Shown one piece after another: positions 1 through 27,091 of a stretch of 51,182 bases of DNA. Source of the stretch: Nitrospinales bacterium (GTDB lineage Bacteria > Nitrospinota_A > UBA7883 > JACRGQ01); the NCBI GenBank assembly GCA_023248495.1, contig JAHFEK010000019.1, positions 1 to 51,182 on the forward strand, given 5' to 3'. A program made the translations under genes and the position numbers. Under the pieces are notes generated by a model. The model was not told the DNA's origin. It saw only the letters and a program-made list of their open reading frames with translations, and did no database searches. Each line of letters opens with the position of its first letter. Positions within the stretch are counted from its first letter, which is position 1.

Positions 1-252
1 CTTGGCGGCGTTTAACCCGGTAATCTTGGGCATATTCCAATCCAGCAGGGCGAACTTGTACCCGGCGTTGGCCCGAAGCGTCTGAAGGGCGGAGGTCCCG
101 TCATCGGCCTCCAACATCATCTCGACACCCATCTGCTTAAGCATGTTCCTCAGGGTGCGCCTCATGTTGGGCATATCGTCGGCTATCAGCACGTACCCGT
201 TTTTGAAATAGCCTTTGATATCGGCCTTCTTCTGGATTGTTTCGCCTGCCAT
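1..252 (-). CDS. CheY-like receiver domain protein (3' end outside window)
   Basis: The first 84 residues of a response-regulator receiver domain are visible; the rest lies beyond the window edge. After a short N-terminal tail the fold opens with YVLIADDMPNMRRTL, giving the acidic pocket. The phosphoacceptor is the Asp in the later FALLDWNMPKITG strand. The ATG at 252 follows a purine-rich AAGGGA and lies only 5 bases after the stop of the nine-haem cytochrome gene, so it is probably the last visible gene of the cNMP/Fe-S operon. Whether an output domain follows cannot be seen. The family (phosphoryl-accepting receiver) is secure; the partner kinase is unknown. Confidence 0.85.
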   Translation of the reverse strand, partial: MAGETIQKKADIKGYFKNGYVLIADDMPNMRRTLRNMLKQMGVEMMLEADDGTSALQTLRANAGYKFALLDWNMPKITGLNAAK

Positions 253-257
253 ACTTG

Positions 258-1067
258 TTATCCCTTTTTCTTTTCCACTACAAGATGGAACCCGTGACAC
301 TTGATGCAGGTGGTTCCCATCCGGGCATCATGACATTCCATGCACTTCGCCACAGAGGGAAGGTTCTCTTCGCTTAACTCGGGAATTGTCAGAATATCCT
401 TGTGGCAGTTGAGGCAGTTAAAACCGCTATGCCGGGCATGTTTGAAGGCCACTTTGTTCACGTAGTGAACCGGTTCGGCGTTTTCTGCCAATTCGGCGTT
501 TCCATGGTGGCACGGAAAACAACTGTCGGAATTAAGTTGCGCCACGCTATACCCCAGCGTCCCCTTTCCGTCCGTATTGATATGGCAGTCGCCGCATTTT
601 TCCATTTTCATTCCGGGAGCCTTCTCCACATGAATGCTGTGTGGAAAAACCCTGTTCGGCTCCGGCTTTTTCATGATGGGGCGTTTTTTTATTTCCGGGT
701 GGGCGGAATAATCATGGCAGGAATTGCACACCACCGAGCCGGGAAAAGAGACCCGGATATCCGGCCCTTTATGCTCTATATGGCAATCGATACACCTCAT
801 CCGTTCCGTAATCTTACGCTTCTCCTCCGCCGCCGACGGGGCGAGGTGCGCCGCCGCGCGCTCATGGCACTTCTCGCATTTGTCATTACGCACGTTGCGC
901 CAGGGCGTGTGGCACACCATGCAATCGGTTGCCAGCGCCTGATGCTTGAGTGAAAGGCCGCCGCCCATGAGCCGGCGGACATCGCCGCTTTTCGCGAATG
1001 CCAACAACACTAACGTCAACAACGCCAGGAATACCGACGTGGCAAACCGGAGGCCGTTCTTGCCCAT
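258..1067 (-). CDS. Nine-haem membrane-anchored cytochrome c
   Basis: 269 aa. An uncleaved-looking N-terminal hydrophobic segment (about residues 8-25) is followed by nine CxxCH haem c sites: CMVCH, CEKCH, CIDCH, CNSCH, CGDCH, CFPCH, CLNCH, CMECH and CIKCH. Many extra His residues could be distal ligands. The spacing is typical of the cytochrome c3/c7/NapC-NrfH-like multihaem superfamily, and the domain should sit on the periplasmic face. The start at 1067 is chosen because its ATG overlaps the TGA of the upstream membrane-protein gene (TGATG), implying translational coupling; a longer reading from 1148 has no such support. It probably passes electrons between the haem-b membrane protein and a periplasmic partner. 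The exact substrate is not evident. Confidence 0.85.
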   Translation of the reverse strand: MGKNGLRFATSVFLALLTLVLLAFAKSGDVRRLMGGGLSLKHQALATDCMVCHTPWRNVRNDKCEKCHERAAAHLAPSAAEEKRKITERMRCIDCHIEHKGPDIRVSFPGSVVCNSCHDYSAHPEIKKRPIMKKPEPNRVFPHSIHVEKAPGMKMEKCGDCHINTDGKGTLGYSVAQLNSDSCFPCHHGNAELAENAEPVHYVNKVAFKHARHSGFNCLNCHKDILTIPELSEENLPSVAKCMECHDARMGTTCIKCHGFHLVVEKKKG

Positions 1068-1906
1068 CAGTAATACAACACCATGAATAGGTGAAACAGG
1101 ATCATCGCGAAAACAACGAACGACACCGGCAGATGAAACCACAGCCAAAAATCAAAGAGCTCCAATTTTACCAAGCGCATGGTGAATCGCTCCTTTTCCA
1201 CCACGATATTCTGCAACAGCCGGAGATGATACTTCTCATCGTTGGAAACCCGAGGGAACAACGCTTCCAGTTGGCGGCGCCGCTGGCGGATTAGCGTGCG
1301 CTCCTCCTTCAACAGATAGCTCCACGGTATACGCCGCAGTTCAAGATAGGGCCGTATTTGATCCCGGTAGAGTTTTTTTAACTGCTCCGACGCCGTTTGC
1401 AGGTCGCTGTCGGCATCGTGAGCGCATTTGGCGATTTTTTCGCGCAGGATGTCCCGCGTCATCATCTCCCTGCCGTCCTTCATGAGGGAAATCGGCGTGA
1501 GCTTGAAAATGAGCGAGCCAGCCACGCCGCTTCCCATGGTGAGCGCAAAAAGGACGAATAAGCCGCCGCCAAATGTGCCGGAAACGTGAAATCCCATATG
1601 CATTAAAACCAACGCCCCGGCGATCACTCCCAAATATACATGAGCCGTCAGCCAAGCGCTCGTGGGGCCGATTCTGAGGTGATACACATGTTTGCGCGCC
1701 TTATACACCATCAGAAAAATCGTAAGGAGAAACGCCAAAACCCCAAACGCAAGGCCGGAGAACGTGCCGCCGCGTGGCAGACCCCCGCCGGCATATATCC
1801 AATACCACCCCGCCAAAAGCGCCGAAACCGCCGCAAAGACAACGGGCCATCGCCCGCGCAATACCTGGAGATCGATTTTATTTTTTAGGAATTCATTTTC
1901 CATCAC
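1067..1906 (-). CDS. Cytochrome b-like polytopic membrane protein
   Basis: 279 aa with about five hydrophobic helices (roughly 20-38, 50-68, 86-106, 112-134 and 253-278). A charged, probably cytoplasmic helical region (about 140-250) lies before the last helix. Histidines sit in or next to membrane segments (H89, H103, H107, H258, H272), as expected for bis-His haem b. I infer a cytochrome b561/ferric-reductase-like electron carrier. It lies between the cytoplasmic cNMP/Fe-S protein gene (24 bases upstream) and the periplasmic nine-haem cytochrome gene (overlapping stop/start), which fits a transmembrane electron conduit. No family name can be assigned by motif alone. Confidence 0.7.
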   Translation of the reverse strand: MMENEFLKNKIDLQVLRGRWPVVFAAVSALLAGWYWIYAGGGLPRGGTFSGLAFGVLAFLLTIFLMVYKARKHVYHLRIGPTSAWLTAHVYLGVIAGALVLMHMGFHVSGTFGGGLFVLFALTMGSGVAGSLIFKLTPISLMKDGREMMTRDILREKIAKCAHDADSDLQTASEQLKKLYRDQIRPYLELRRIPWSYLLKEERTLIRQRRRQLEALFPRVSNDEKYHLRLLQNIVVEKERFTMRLVKLELFDFWLWFHLPVSFVVFAMILFHLFMVLYY

Positions 1907-1930
1907 GTATCCCCATAGTTGCCGCCAGCA

Positions 1931-3364
1931 TCATGTGATGGCCTTGAAATCGAGGAAATATTCGGTCGGGTTCACATGGCGCGCCGCGCCGGTGGGGCAG
2001 TTATATACGCATCCCATGAATTCATGATCCTTGCAAAGATCGCATTTCACCGCTTGTTTCTTTACGCGCGCCGGCCCGGCCGGGCTGGCGGTTTCACCGG
2101 AAGGCGCGGCCCGCGCCCCGCCCCCCTTGAACCGCCCCAACGGGCCGAGAAGGTGATGCCATGGGCTTAGCCCCGCATCGCCATCCCGCCGGACCACCAC
2201 GGCGATGTTCCCGTGCGGGCATAGGCGCGCGCAACCGCCGCAACCGATGCAATAATCCTCGTGGTAAATCTCCCCCTGCAGATTCCTTTTGATGGCGCCG
2301 GTGGGACAACTGGACATGCAGACCGGATCGGCGCAGTTACGGCACGAAGTGGGAAGCAGAATGTAGTCGTTAAGCTTCATCCCTTTGCGTATCAGGCGTG
2401 AATCCCCCCCGTGCAACGCGGCGCACGCTTTTACGCAACTGTCGCACTGCACGCACTTGGTGATGTCCATGAGCAGAAGCGCCTTGGACTGGATCAGTCC
2501 CCCTTCGGTCAGAGCGGAAAGTTTACGGGCCATGAAGCCGCTATTGCCGATCTGCTCGTTGCGCTCGCGCCGTTTTCGTATCACCATCTCGAATGCCGCC
2601 CGCAACGGCTCGTTCATTTCAAGAATATGGCTGAAATCAGCCATGGCTATTTTAATCACCTCCAGACGGTTGAGGGCCGATATGGTGGCGGTTCTCCGCC
2701 CCTTTTCCATCAATGCCATCTCGCCGAAGTAGCTCCCTTCGTTCAGGTAGGCGAGCACCCGTTCCCCCATCCTGGCGTCGCGCCGCGACACTTTGGCGAA
2801 GCCGTACCGTATCAGATAGAAAGCATCGACTTCGTCCCCCTCATTAAAAACCACCTCATTCCCTCGGAATGTTTGCAAGGTTGCCGCGCCGCGGATTTTT
2901 TCTATCATCTCTTCCGTGAGGGATGCGAATATCGGCACTTTGGAAAGCTGGGCGCCAAGCGCGCGCCGGAGATAGATGGCGTCCAAACGCTCCTTGACCA
3001 CCGGAAATTTATCGATGATGCTGAAGATGTCATCGCGCGAAATACGCAGCAGCTTCACATCCGTCCCGGCCAGAACGTCCGCCGTGCGCGGCGTGCCCGA
3101 CATGGCGGCGATTTCCCCGAAAATTTCACCCGCGCTGATGGAAATCCTCTTTGGCGTCTCCGCTCCCATTCCGGGAACAAGAACCGCCGCGGAACCTTCA
3201 AGGATAATGCTGCACGTTTCCTCGTACTCGCCTTGGCGGCAAATATAATCGCCGGCCTTGTAATGGACGGGATTGATCCCTTGGATGGCGGCGAGCAACT
3301 GATCGGGATCCAGCCCTTCAAACAGGGCCATTTTAGCGATGCCGGGTATCAGATCAAGGGCCAT
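1931..3364 (-). CDS. Dual cyclic-nucleotide-binding domain / four 4Fe-4S cluster protein
   Basis: 477 aa, no signal peptide, so cytoplasmic. There are two tandem cNMP-binding folds (about 12-130 and 143-262). Each keeps the phosphate-binding cassette with its Arg: FGEIAAMSGTPRTA at 82-95 and FGEMALMEKGRRTA at 213-226. The C-terminal half is a polyferredoxin of HycB/PhsB type with 16 Cys in four groups: 304/307/310/314, 341/344/349/353, 372/375/378/382 and 441/444/452/456. A Gly/Ala/Pro linker (about 414-434) precedes the last group. It is the first gene of the run leading to the haem-b protein and the nine-haem cytochrome. I infer a redox protein gated or tuned by a cyclic nucleotide. The ATG at 3364 has only a weak Shine-Dalgarno. 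Confidence 0.85.
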   Translation of the reverse strand: MALDLIPGIAKMALFEGLDPDQLLAAIQGINPVHYKAGDYICRQGEYEETCSIILEGSAAVLVPGMGAETPKRISISAGEIFGEIAAMSGTPRTADVLAGTDVKLLRISRDDIFSIIDKFPVVKERLDAIYLRRALGAQLSKVPIFASLTEEMIEKIRGAATLQTFRGNEVVFNEGDEVDAFYLIRYGFAKVSRRDARMGERVLAYLNEGSYFGEMALMEKGRRTATISALNRLEVIKIAMADFSHILEMNEPLRAAFEMVIRKRRERNEQIGNSGFMARKLSALTEGGLIQSKALLLMDITKCVQCDSCVKACAALHGGDSRLIRKGMKLNDYILLPTSCRNCADPVCMSSCPTGAIKRNLQGEIYHEDYCIGCGGCARLCPHGNIAVVVRRDGDAGLSPWHHLLGPLGRFKGGGARAAPSGETASPAGPARVKKQAVKCDLCKDHEFMGCVYNCPTGAARHVNPTEYFLDFKAIT

Positions 3365-3494: not shown

Positions 3495-4382
3495 TTAGCG
3501 GAGTGTTTTTATCTCCAGCTTCCCGTCGATCATGCGAGGCAGGTAAAGCGCCCTTGTACCGGGGATATACAGAAAATCGGCCGGCCCCCCATAAGCGCCG
3601 GGAAGTACCTCGAATGTTCCCTTGTTTACATCGACGCGAATCAACACCCCTTTCTCCGGCTCGAACGCCACCCAGTCTGACACGAGAAAAAATCCTTTCC
3701 CCATCGGCTGGAGGCCATCGTAAAAACCGGGACGATCAATTATCCTATGGTACGCGGCGGTCTTTTGTGAAAAATCCACCACTCCAACCTCGCCCGATGC
3801 CTTCCCATCCTGATTGGCGAAACCGGCAACGTAGAGCTGTTTCGCTTTCGCGTCATACCAAAGACCGTTAGGGCCGGAAACGGCCGCGCCAATATCGCGG
3901 TAGCTTTTCGCCTTCACGTCCACCTCGAATATCTTATTGATGTCCGTAGCGGAGACAAAAAGCCCGTGGCCATCCTTCACGGCGAGATCGTTGAGATACG
4001 CGGTCTTTTCCGCCGTGAAATCGAGGTCGAGCACCTTCTCGCCGCTTTGCAGGTTAAAGCCAAGCAAGTGGTCGATGTCGGCGACATAAAGCACATTCCC
4101 CAGTATGGCAAGCCCCTTCGGGCCGTCAAGACCGGTTATGAAATCCTTTTTCACCATGTTGCCCGCGAGATCCAACTTCGCGATATAGCCGTCGCCGTCT
4201 TTCGCGCTCGGCTCCAGCTTCACCCCGAGGTTGGATACATACAGGTATTTGCCCGCGAGCGCCACGCTTTCGGGCGAGTTGAACCCATCGATGATTTTAT
4301 CTTTAGCAAACACCGGGGCGGCAAGAACAAGTACAACAGCGGCGCAAAGGAAAGCGGCAATGGGGGACAGCGGTTTCTTCAT
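3495..4382 (-). CDS. Secreted SMP-30/NHL-like beta-propeller protein
   Basis: 295 aa. A clear signal peptide ends near VFA-KDK. The mature part is a series of blade-like repeats (KYLYVSNLG, NVLYVADIDHLLGF, HGLFVSATDINKIFEV, KQLYVAGFANQDG) typical of SMP-30/gluconolactonase and NHL propellers. Residues such as the NDLAVKDG and GPNGLWYD loops resemble metal-site positions of SMP-30-type lactonases, but I cannot confirm a catalytic set. It is expected in the periplasm. It lies alone between the cNMP operon and rhlE, on the same strand as both. Enzyme or ligand-binding scaffold: undecided. Confidence 0.65.
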   Translation of the reverse strand: MKKPLSPIAAFLCAAVVLVLAAPVFAKDKIIDGFNSPESVALAGKYLYVSNLGVKLEPSAKDGDGYIAKLDLAGNMVKKDFITGLDGPKGLAILGNVLYVADIDHLLGFNLQSGEKVLDLDFTAEKTAYLNDLAVKDGHGLFVSATDINKIFEVDVKAKSYRDIGAAVSGPNGLWYDAKAKQLYVAGFANQDGKASGEVGVVDFSQKTAAYHRIIDRPGFYDGLQPMGKGFFLVSDWVAFEPEKGVLIRVDVNKGTFEVLPGAYGGPADFLYIPGTRALYLPRMIDGKLEIKTLR

Positions 4383-24084: not shown

Positions 24085-25161
24085 TCAGAAAAAGAGTGTT
24101 ACCGCAAACCGAAAATCCGTGTAATTTTTTGGATTAGCTTCCAGCGTATTCGGGTCGACGCCGATATCCCGATTGCCCGCGCCGCGGGTATGATCGGCAA
24201 CTTCCGCTTTGAAAATGAGGTTGTCCAATGGCATATAGTTGACGCCGACGATCTGCTCGGTCCAACCATCGCCCGCCGACGAAGTGTCAGGATCCGTCTG
24301 TTCATAGCGATAATAAGGGGTAACTTGTTTGTTTACCGTATAGGAAAGCTGCCCATATGCGCCGGTATCCACCGTGCCGCCGACATCCGAACTGGCGTAT
24401 TCAAAAAGAGCGCCCAAGTCCCCGGCGCCGGTGGCGAACATGAGTCCCCACGTGGTATGGCTGGTAGCGAGGCGCGAAGCCGATTCGGCCTTCTCACCGC
24501 TGTAGAAAGAAGCCGCCAGACTTGTCTTTTCCACGGGTTGAATGGCAATACGGCCGCCAAACGCCTTATTCCGGTTGCTGTCATGCTCCGCATCGTTCAC
24601 GGTTGGCAAGTTTTCCCCGTTTCCCACGTAGAAAATATATTCCACGATGGTATTGCCATACTCCCTGACACCCAGCACGTTGACACCGGTCGTCCATTTG
24701 GGAAACATGGAGGTGCCGCCACGCTCGTGCTGGCGATAAATTGTCCGCGGAATGCCGAACGAAAGAAACACCGGCGTGGCATCGTGCACTTCGTTGAAAT
24801 AACCGAAGGGAGTGAGCGCTTTGCCGAACCGGAACTGCAAGAGGTCGTTATGGAAATATTGGATAAACGATTTTTCCACGATGATGTCCCCGCCGTTTGA
24901 TACCGCGGTGTTCACCCCGTGATCGAACTCGATGTGGAAATGACCGGAGATTCGCTCATCCACCGGCACATCCAAAAGGAAGCTTAAGTGGTGCTGGTGA
25001 AAAGCGCCGTTCGGGTTATCGGCGTTGTTACTGCTTTGGGTATACTCAAGATCGATAAAGCCGTTAAGGGTTATTTTAGAAAAGTCGACGGCGTATGCGC
25101 TGCCAGCGCCGCCCAGCGGCAATAACATTGCCAACGCCAATGCCACGAATATTTTTCTCAA
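24085..25161 (-). CDS. Outer-membrane porin-like beta-barrel
   Basis: 358 aa from TTG at 25161. Signal peptide (ending GSAYA-VDF). The mature protein is made of alternating beta strands with aromatic girdles and ends with a strand terminating in LFF, the BamA recognition signal. GFIDLEYTQSS, FRFGKALTPFGYFNEVHDA, WTTGVNVLG and FKAEVADHTRG resemble the OprO/OprP (Phosphate-selective porin) superfamily and related single-barrel porins. It is the first gene of a porin/PBP-like/kinase run. Substrate unknown; phosphate or another oxyanion is inference only. Confidence 0.8.
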   Translation of the reverse strand: MRKIFVALALAMLLPLGGAGSAYAVDFSKITLNGFIDLEYTQSSNNADNPNGAFHQHHLSFLLDVPVDERISGHFHIEFDHGVNTAVSNGGDIIVEKSFIQYFHNDLLQFRFGKALTPFGYFNEVHDATPVFLSFGIPRTIYRQHERGGTSMFPKWTTGVNVLGVREYGNTIVEYIFYVGNGENLPTVNDAEHDSNRNKAFGGRIAIQPVEKTSLAASFYSGEKAESASRLATSHTTWGLMFATGAGDLGALFEYASSDVGGTVDTGAYGQLSYTVNKQVTPYYRYEQTDPDTSSAGDGWTEQIVGVNYMPLDNLIFKAEVADHTRGAGNRDIGVDPNTLEANPKNYTDFRFAVTLFF

Positions 25162-25262: not shown

Positions 25263-26114
25263 TTAGTCGCCGAATCCGCCAGCGCCATGACATGCGGCGC
25301 AACCTTGGCTGTTTTCCTTCCGATGGGTCCATGTATTCTTCCAACTGGTGTAGCTATTGGTAATCGCGCCGCTATGGCACCACGCGCAATCGTACCCGGA
25401 ATAGTGCTGAGTGTGGCAACCGCTGGCGTTGCAGCCGCTGGTCACGACCGTGTGTCCGCCACCCCATTTACCGCCGGTACCGGCCGTATTCACCTTGTAG
25501 TAGTGGCATTTTTCGCAAGCCTTCTGCCGCGTGGCATCGTTCTTGTGGCTGGTTGGAAAAATGGACAATGTTGTCAGGGGGTCGTGCTTAACCGGATCGT
25601 GGCAGTCGGTGCAGACCCCTTTAAGCGCGATGTGCCACTTGGTGGTGTCGGTTAATTTTAGGTTCTTGCGCCAGCCGGCTATTCTTACCGCATCGGTTGC
25701 GGTGGGCTCCGGCGTCAGGCTATGGCATTTGTTGCATTGCTCGCCGGTCTTGTTTGTGACATGGTTGAAGTTGGTGGCCAGCGAGGTGTATTTCGAAAAC
25801 GGATGGCAACCGCTTTGTGCGCAAATGGCATTGCTGTCGACGGAATGGCAGTCGTTGCAGACAGCCGTGCTATGGGGGGCGGTGGCGATCCATGTGGCGT
25901 GGGGAATCGTTTTTGTGTCAATGCCCATAGTGCTCATATCAACGGTGGTGGGGGTGGTCACGACGGGCGTGGTGGTGTCCCCGCTGCCTTCACCATCTTT
26001 GCCTCCTCCGCAAGCGGCAAGGGTAAAAGCAAGCATGAGAACGCAGCAAAGCCCGGTTAAGATTTTTGCGGTATGTTTCATGCTGTTGTCTTTCATTGCG
26101 ATGAGGCTGCGCAT
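25263..26114 (-). CDS. Eight-haem lipoprotein cytochrome c (copy 2)
   Basis: 283 aa from ATG at 26114, which has a GGGGAG ribosome-binding site; the ATG at 26081 would also leave the signal intact. Lipobox LAAC, then a Gly/Thr-rich linker. Haem sites: six CxxCH (CNDCH, CNKCH, CTDCH, CEKCH, CAWCH, CAACH) and two CX4CH (CAQSGCH, CNASGCH). A close paralogue is encoded directly upstream, sharing nearly every motif in order (HPFSKYT-LATNFNH, SL-PEPTATDAVRIAGWR, KGVCT-CHDPVKHDP). It lacks the roughly 30-residue insertion the other copy has before the seventh haem. Likely an envelope-surface electron carrier. Confidence 0.85.
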   Translation of the reverse strand: MRSLIAMKDNSMKHTAKILTGLCCVLMLAFTLAACGGGKDGEGSGDTTTPVVTTPTTVDMSTMGIDTKTIPHATWIATAPHSTAVCNDCHSVDSNAICAQSGCHPFSKYTSLATNFNHVTNKTGEQCNKCHSLTPEPTATDAVRIAGWRKNLKLTDTTKWHIALKGVCTDCHDPVKHDPLTTLSIFPTSHKNDATRQKACEKCHYYKVNTAGTGGKWGGGHTVVTSGCNASGCHTQHYSGYDCAWCHSGAITNSYTSWKNTWTHRKENSQGCAACHGAGGFGD

Positions 26115-26155
26115 TATCACTCCCCTCGGTGTTTCTTTTTCGTGCCGGCCCATTG

Positions 26156-27091
26156 TTATGATGGGATGCTGTTGGGGTGGCAAGCGCCGCACGATCTGAT
26201 ATCCCACTTGGTCGTTCCCTTACGGTGGCCACTCTTGCTGAATGACAGATTCCAACTGGAGTAACCTCCGGATGCCACATCTTTGTGGCACCATTCGCAC
26301 TCAAACGGTCCGGCGCTCACGGAGCCACCCGCATTTGCGTCATAGTGCTGGCCCGCAACGTAACCGCCCTCTTGATTATTCTGGGTGGTCGGTTTCGTAT
26401 GCGTATGGCACGTTGCCGTCCGGCAACCGGCCGTTACCGCGGGATGGCCGCCGCCGCCCCAAGTGCCGCCGGTACCGGCGCTGTTGACTTTGTAATAGTG
26501 ACACGTTTCACAAGCCGACTGCCGTGTGGTGTCGGTTTTGTGGCTGGCAGGGAAAATAGCCAATGTTGTCTTGGGATCATGCTTAACCGGATCGTGACAG
26601 TTGGTGCAGACTCCTTTGAGTGAGACATGCCACTTGGTGGTGTCGGTTATCTTCACGTTCTCGCGCCAACCGGCGATCCTCACCGCATCGGTGGCGGTGG
26701 GCTCCGGCTTCAAGCTGTGGCATTTGTTGCACTGATCTCCGGTATTGTTGGAAGTATGATTGAAATTGGTGGCCAAGGCCGTATACTTTGAGAACGGGTG
26801 GCACCCGCTTTGCGCACATACTTTCTCGCGATCAACAGTATGGCAATCATTGCACAGGTACGTGCTATGGGGTGCGGTGGCAACCCATGTGGAATGCGCG
26901 ACCGTTGTGGTATCAATCCCCAGTGTGCTCAAAGAAACAGTCGTACCGGTACCGGTACCTGTGCCGGTTCCGGTACTTGTGCCGGTACCAGCATTATCAG
27001 GCGCAGAACCACAGGCAGCTATCCAAAAAACGAATAGCACGGCGGATAAAACCGCCCACGGTGACTTCTGTAACTGCCTAATATTCAACAT
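26156..27091 (-). CDS. Eight-haem lipoprotein cytochrome c (copy 1)
   Basis: 311 aa from ATG at 27091, chosen because it gives a lipoprotein signal with lipobox IAAC; a longer reading from 27262 hides it. A GT-dipeptide linker (GTGTSTGTGTG...) separates the lipid anchor from the haem domain. Haem sites: six CxxCH (CNDCH, CNKCH, CTNCH, CETCH, CEWCH, CGACH) and two CX4CH (CAQSGCH, CRTATCH). The gene is a tandem duplicate with the next one. CX4CH sites are uncommon and need a competent cytochrome maturation system, which is not encoded in this window. Electron partner unknown. Confidence 0.85.
   Translation of the reverse strand: MLNIRQLQKSPWAVLSAVLFVFWIAACGSAPDNAGTGTSTGTGTGTGTGTTVSLSTLGIDTTTVAHSTWVATAPHSTYLCNDCHTVDREKVCAQSGCHPFSKYTALATNFNHTSNNTGDQCNKCHSLKPEPTATDAVRIAGWRENVKITDTTKWHVSLKGVCTNCHDPVKHDPKTTLAIFPASHKTDTTRQSACETCHYYKVNSAGTGGTWGGGGHPAVTAGCRTATCHTHTKPTTQNNQEGGYVAGQHYDANAGGSVSAGPFECEWCHKDVASGGYSSWNLSFSKSGHRKGTTKWDIRSCGACHPNSIPS
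26944..26991. repeat. Six-base degenerate repeat encoding the Gly-Thr linker
   Basis: Eight tandem hexamers of the form GGNACN (GGTACC, GGCACA, AGTACC and variants, minus strand) encode the GTGTSTGTGTGTGTGT linker of the cytochrome. Slippage here would change linker length in frame. Confidence 0.7.

Follow-up and report, generated by a model that had tools for sequence, protein, structure and literature searches.

A widespread three-gene module probably encoding a transmembrane redox complex with a tandem cyclic-nucleotide-binding sensor, found in a Nitrospinales bacterium

Two groups of described bacterial systems come closest to the locus analyzed here. CbcL of Geobacter sulfurreducens is a quinone oxidoreductase made of one polypeptide with six helices (PMC9129911), and CbcL and CbcBA, like the present locus, pair an inner-membrane dihaem b unit with a periplasmic unit that has nine c haems and a comparable mass. 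The Hmc, Tmc and Nhc complexes of sulfate reducers, which are believed to conduct electrons through the membrane, combine membrane subunits with a periplasmic multihaem cytochrome, as does this locus (PMC4215793). The genes in question lie at the start of contig JAHFEK010000019.1 (here C89) of a Nitrospinales bacterium (assembly GCA_023248495.1; 2.57 Mb, 93 contigs), and we refer to the whole stretch analyzed, positions 1 to 51,182, as the window. Three of them encode a protein with tandem cyclic-nucleotide-binding (CNB) domains and a ferredoxin domain, a membrane protein and a nine-haem cytochrome. We propose that they probably form an uncharacterized, widespread transmembrane redox complex with a tandem CNB sensor and probable cyclic-nucleotide control.

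Together with a fourth gene, they are arranged on the minus strand with intergenic gaps of 24, -1 and 5 bases, and the coordinates of this layout, as described in an initial annotation of the DNA, were verified:

1931..3364, minus strand: P0001, tandem CNB and four-cluster [4Fe-4S] ferredoxin protein, 477 aa (PF00027 twice, 16 Cys)
1067..1906, minus strand: P0002, five-helix membrane protein, predicted dihaem cytochrome b (invariant His, AlphaFold2)
258..1067, minus strand: P0003, nine-haem c-type cytochrome, 269 aa (nine CXXCH, Pfam)
1..252, minus strand: P0004, first 84 residues of a protein with a receiver domain and tetratricopeptide repeats (TPRs) (PF00072; continued on contig C44)

To survey the distribution of the module, genome contigs were scanned with a profile of the P0001 alignment, and the best 80 of 264 confirmed loci were compared; the resulting prevalence is a lower bound. 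The scan reached Acidobacteria, Deltaproteobacteria, Planctomycetota, Verrucomicrobia, Alpha- and Gammaproteobacteria, SAR324, Nitrospirota, Candidatus Uabimicrobium and others. Among these best 80 of 264 loci, the closest named relatives were genome bins of Nitrospinota, including one from groundwater. The three-gene set was complete in about 70 of the 80 loci, 59 being recognized by rule, 6 as fusions and 5 from the table of open reading frames beyond the distance rule, mostly with short gaps or overlaps between the genes. Six of the incomplete loci lie at contig ends, which leaves L080 (reordered), L088, L101 and L150 as true exceptions. Within Nitrospinota, the CNB-ferredoxin gene was found upstream and a multihaem cytochrome gene downstream of the membrane gene in all 14 other loci with enough contig, while two further loci at contig ends kept the downstream cytochrome. 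The membrane family was matched at E <= 1e-20 in 14 of 24 Nitrospinota genomes, and 13 of these matches are strong and cover almost the full profile. The neighborhood check that the initial annotation had called for therefore found the homologs of these three genes regularly adjacent, whereas the four-gene order including the receiver is not kept in the Nitrospinota relatives examined.

Further, seven natural fusions join the CNB-ferredoxin protein and the membrane protein in one polypeptide. The distance matrices of the three proteins were also correlated across 59 loci (Mantel r of 0.89, 0.78 and 0.83, with 0 of 2,000 permutations as high). This shows shared inheritance, which fits a physical complex and is no proof of one by itself. 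Chance adjacency of the three genes is ruled out by the conserved order, the fusions and the Mantel test. One of the loci, L097, belongs to a cultured species, Hwanghaeella grinnelliae; a plasmid search with the homolog from Hwanghaeella gave no match. In the reordered locus L080 (G013, contig C15), a 10-haem cytochrome, the CNB-ferredoxin protein and a 400-aa membrane protein are present twice in inverted orientation, which may reflect either a genuine inverted duplication or an artifact of the assembly.

P0001 matches PF00027 over two stretches (E 4e-38; 129.6 bits against a gathering cut-off of 27.5), corresponding to CNB domains at about residues 15-117 and 140-250, and its ferredoxin domain spans about residues 297-460. 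Sixteen cysteines follow the order CxxCxxCxxxC / CxxCxxxxCxxxCP / CxxCxxCxxxCP / CxxC...CxxxCP, a four-cluster pattern that is invariant in the Nitrospinota alignment and almost invariant in the 80 homologs. The two cNMP domains and the four-cluster ferredoxin named in the initial annotation are thus both present. Sequence relatives in the PDB are the regulatory subunit of protein kinase A (PKA-R) and protein kinase G (PKG) for the CNB half and ArrB/HycB-type proteins for the Fe-S half. A model of a natural CNB-ferredoxin-membrane fusion (predicted template modeling score 0.74) matched the fold of the tandem CNB domains of PKA-R/PKG with E values down to 1e-12. These kinase regulators, the best matches in both sequence and fold, share with P0001 the CNB-A/CNB-B tandem and the Glu and Arg of the phosphate-binding cassette, but act on a kinase, whereas the CNB pair of P0001 is fused to a ferredoxin domain. 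The four-cluster subunits HycB, ArrB, DmsB and NrfC have the 16 cysteines in the same order (matches to 6cz7_B, ArrB-type, and to 7qv7 HycB3/B4); unlike them, P0001 carries an N-terminal CNB pair and has no adjoining molybdoenzyme or hydrogenase partner.

The membrane protein P0002 starts with GTG, or with ATG at 1903, and has five predicted transmembrane helices and a long soluble helical insert at about residues 140-250. Its residues H89, H103, H258 and H272 are invariant in 55 homologs, which agrees with its earlier description as haem-b-like. The pairs H89/H103 and H258/H272 are each 14 residues apart in two predicted helices, a spacing known from the dihaem b wires of cytochrome b and of NADPH oxidase (NOX), where it is about 14. 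Ferric reductase and NOX cores and DUF4405 likewise have two helices with two His each, but P0002 differs from ferric reductase and NOX in its five helices, its large soluble insert and the lack of a fused FAD/NAD domain. The fusions place the N-terminus after the cytoplasmic Fe-S domain, and a basic loop precedes helix 3; a cytoplasmic location is therefore expected for the N-terminus and the 140-250 insert, and a periplasmic one for the C-terminus.

None of the families tested accommodated this subunit. P0002 had no family match in Pfam or NCBIfam, including the ferric reductase-like PF01794; its 55 homologs gave a weak DUF4405 match in 8 cases and a Ferric_reduct match in one (E 0.007). An NrfD-, NarI- or HydC-type identity was rejected, as no such match was obtained in Pfam or NCBIfam for P0002, nor in Pfam for the 55 homologs. 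The AlphaFold2 model of P0002 (mean predicted local distance difference test score 88.3) had no fold match in the PDB at E <= 0.001 (best E 0.73), and a profile search of A4 against PDB sequences returned nothing useful. Distant relatives of P0002 (about 24% identity or less) were seen at L049, L050 and L051, next to other Fe-S proteins and cytochromes of about 20-38 haems, which suggests that the family is wider and used in several multihaem systems.

In P0003, nine CXXCH motifs were counted, in agreement with the nine haems first assigned to it, behind an N-terminal signal or anchor segment. It matches PF14522, PF14537 and PF02085 in Pfam, and the profile of its family hits multihaem cytochromes, among them those of the c7 type, to which the best match, 3ov0, belongs (E 1.9e-24).

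Compared with the described systems, the module has the predicted dihaem b unit and the multihaem c unit of CbcL/CbcBA (four invariant His, nine CXXCH). The CbcL-type six-helix b domain fused to a c domain is not found in it, as it has five transmembrane helices and separate genes. In the accessible part of PMC9129911, neither a cytoplasmic four-cluster Fe-S protein nor CNB domains are described for CbcL, whereas the module has both. It also has the Fe-S subunit and periplasmic multihaem cytochrome in one cluster that mark Hmc, Tmc and Qrc. Hmc, Tmc and Nhc, in contrast, contain other membrane subunits (NrfD-like HmcC in Hmc), have a different gene set and are not described as having CNB domains (PMC4215793). 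The module would work like CbcL and Hmc/Tmc but lacks the membrane-subunit features that define them. The initial annotation knew of no characterized system with its set; this agrees with the open-license literature searched, in which no description of the three-gene set was found, though a subscription paper may exist.

Both CNB pockets of P0001 keep the ribose-contact Glu (E84, E215) and the phosphate-contact Arg (R93, R224), the latter as originally pointed out. In pocket A, Glu is conserved in 80 and Arg in 75 of 80 aligned homologs across phyla. All aligned Nitrospinota sequences have an intact pocket B, while overall only 18 of about 80 homologs have its Glu and 16 its Arg. Because it is kept across phyla and pocket B is mostly degenerate outside Nitrospinota, pocket A would be the ancestral candidate site. 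A Thr follows the Arg in both pockets, as in PKG, which hints at cGMP as the ligand. In the genome itself, eight matches to class III cyclases were found, as well as twelve to CNB domains, of which P0001 accounts for two. With these residues in place, binding of a cyclic nucleotide by the CNB domains of P0001 appears rather likely. Directly upstream of the module, one Nitrospinota genome encodes a GAF-HD-HD_5 protein (L045:5509-7962, equal to L078:7439-9892) that carries a tandem CNB of its own; this tandem is 43% identical to that of P0001, and the protein is a possible signaling partner.

Outside Nitrospinota, an NqrF-like FAD/NAD/2Fe-2S protein is encoded close by in 46 of the 80 loci. Proteins containing Pyr_redox are found near the module in 6 of the 80, several of them with FHA, and a Fer4 plus Glu_synthase protein in two Nitrospinota loci. 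As different reductases have been recruited to the same cytoplasmic side, this suggests a route from NAD(P)H or flavin through Fe-S and haem b to periplasmic haem c. Many clusters outside Nitrospinota add cytochromes with four and with five haems, along with a secreted protein of 515 aa that may reside in the outer membrane, and the module cytochrome in these larger clusters has ten haems. Examples with an NqrF-like reductase, a c554-like tetrahaem, a pentahaem and the 515-aa protein include L128, L097, L105 and L143; the 515-aa protein has no Pfam match, and its end resembles an outer-membrane barrel.

We therefore propose, with a probability of roughly 0.6 for the proposal as a whole, that the products of the three genes form a redox complex of the inner membrane that serves as an outward electron wire under CNB control, with the receiver incidental. 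A cytoplasmic donor (NAD(P)H via a flavoprotein in other clades) would deliver electrons to the four [4Fe-4S] clusters of P0001. From there, the electrons would traverse the membrane via two b haems with bis-His ligation in P0002, H89-H258 near the cytoplasm and H103-H272 near the periplasm, and leave through the nine-haem cytochrome P0003 toward further multihaem proteins. In an arrangement like that of PKA-R/PKG, the tandem CNB domains would bind a cyclic nucleotide and thereby alter electron entry or assembly. Gene content, gene order and the conservation of the cofactor ligands are observed directly. That the three proteins form a complex and a transmembrane wire is likely, and the electron conduit with a CNB-bearing cytoplasmic end that the initial annotation had envisaged is well supported for the three genes by their conserved order, the fusions, the congruent distances and the invariant ligands. 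More tentatively, the cyclic nucleotide may directly open or close electron entry from a donor such as NAD(P)H in many bacterial phyla. Several points weigh against this proposal. No donor flavoprotein adjoins the module in this genome, so that for this organism we infer the outward direction. The haem pairing in P0002 rests on the invariant His spacing, and no quinone or NAD site was identified. Finally, the degeneration of pocket B in most relatives outside Nitrospinota means that at least this CNB domain can do without a ligand.

The last point leads to an alternative in which the two CNB domains bind no ligand and act as a scaffold or dimerization module, and the conduit lacks cyclic-nucleotide control. 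CNB folds that do not bind cNMP are well known (CooA/FNR types), and the module persists where pocket B has lost its Glu and Arg; with pocket A conserved across phyla, both pockets intact in Nitrospinota and class III cyclases in the genome, we nevertheless consider this unlikely. Likewise doubtful is a complex that runs inward or couples to the quinone pool in the manner of Qrc or Hmc, passing periplasmic electrons to quinone or to cytoplasmic Fe-S acceptors. The resemblance of the dihaem-b/nine-haem pair to the quinone oxidoreductase CbcL (PMC9129911) would favor such a complex, but the repeated presence of different NAD(P)H-type flavoproteins beside the module across clades favors NAD(P)H as donor. 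A role as a redox sensor, in which the state of the Fe-S clusters or haems alters CNB affinity and feeds into cyclic-nucleotide signaling, could draw on the homologous tandem CNB encoded upstream of the operon at L045. It is improbable, since a periplasmic cytochrome of 8-11 haems and, elsewhere, penta- and tetrahaem neighbors and flavoproteins fit flux better than sensing.

In the initial annotation, P0004 was a CheY-like receiver and the fourth component of the system. The receiver domain is there (PF00072), but these are only the first 84 residues of a receiver-TPR protein: the window begins at base 1 of the contig, so the gene is cut by the contig end. As had been suggested, it was completed beyond this edge by a search of the organism's own genome. 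Contig C44 opens with a frame of 302 aa that repeats the last 22 receiver residues with 86% identity; the DNA overlap with C89 is 66-68 bases with a few mismatches, and bases about 1-911 of C44 complete the receiver and continue with TPRs. The full protein is thus read across both contigs, with the junction taken from overlap and synteny. A short run of N occurs near the end of this gene on C44. The next gene there is lysS, 93% identical to lysS of the same genus in L034. The two contigs very probably adjoin, with the receiver-TPR gene between the cytochrome gene and lysS, because a convergent lysS directly follows the cytochrome gene in two genomes of the same genus.

Among the genomes examined, a receiver gene at this position occurs in this species only. 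The Nitrospinota relatives searched had no match to the P0004 receiver beside the module, which marks it as a local neighbor and not a conserved part; as a conserved member of the module it is ruled out, sister species having no receiver at that place. A functional fourth component placing the conduit under phosphorelay control is very improbable on the same grounds, and the claim of the initial annotation to that effect is not supported. The gene does lie on the same strand 5 bp after the cytochrome gene, and the receiver Asp and Lys positions look intact once the C44 continuation is added, but receiver-TPR paralogs are encoded elsewhere in the genome (two on C77, for example), and lysS takes its place in the two genomes of the genus.

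Other features of the window, outside the module, are:

3495..4382, minus strand: secreted, possibly beta-propeller protein, 295 aa, the upstream neighbor (sub-threshold weak matches only)
25263-26207, minus strand: a second multihaem cytochrome, six CXXCH
24085-25161, minus strand: secreted, possibly barrel-type protein, 358 aa, 3' of the six-CXXCH cytochrome gene and followed by two more genes

The gene for the 295-aa protein is located 130 bp ahead of the operon and has an equally placed homolog in one genome of the same genus (L034). A scan for promoters and terminators found 6 promoter-like sites against 2.8 in shuffled sequence, of which one lies where P0002 begins and none is convincing, and a terminator count equal to that of shuffled sequence.

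The natural fusions and the availability of isolate genomes make these ideas directly testable. If they are true, there would be a widespread electron-transfer complex whose membrane subunit falls outside every family tested. Cyclic-nucleotide signaling in bacteria is known mostly through transcription factors and channels; with this complex, second-messenger signaling would gain a direct, post-translational hold on the flow of electrons out of the cytoplasm.

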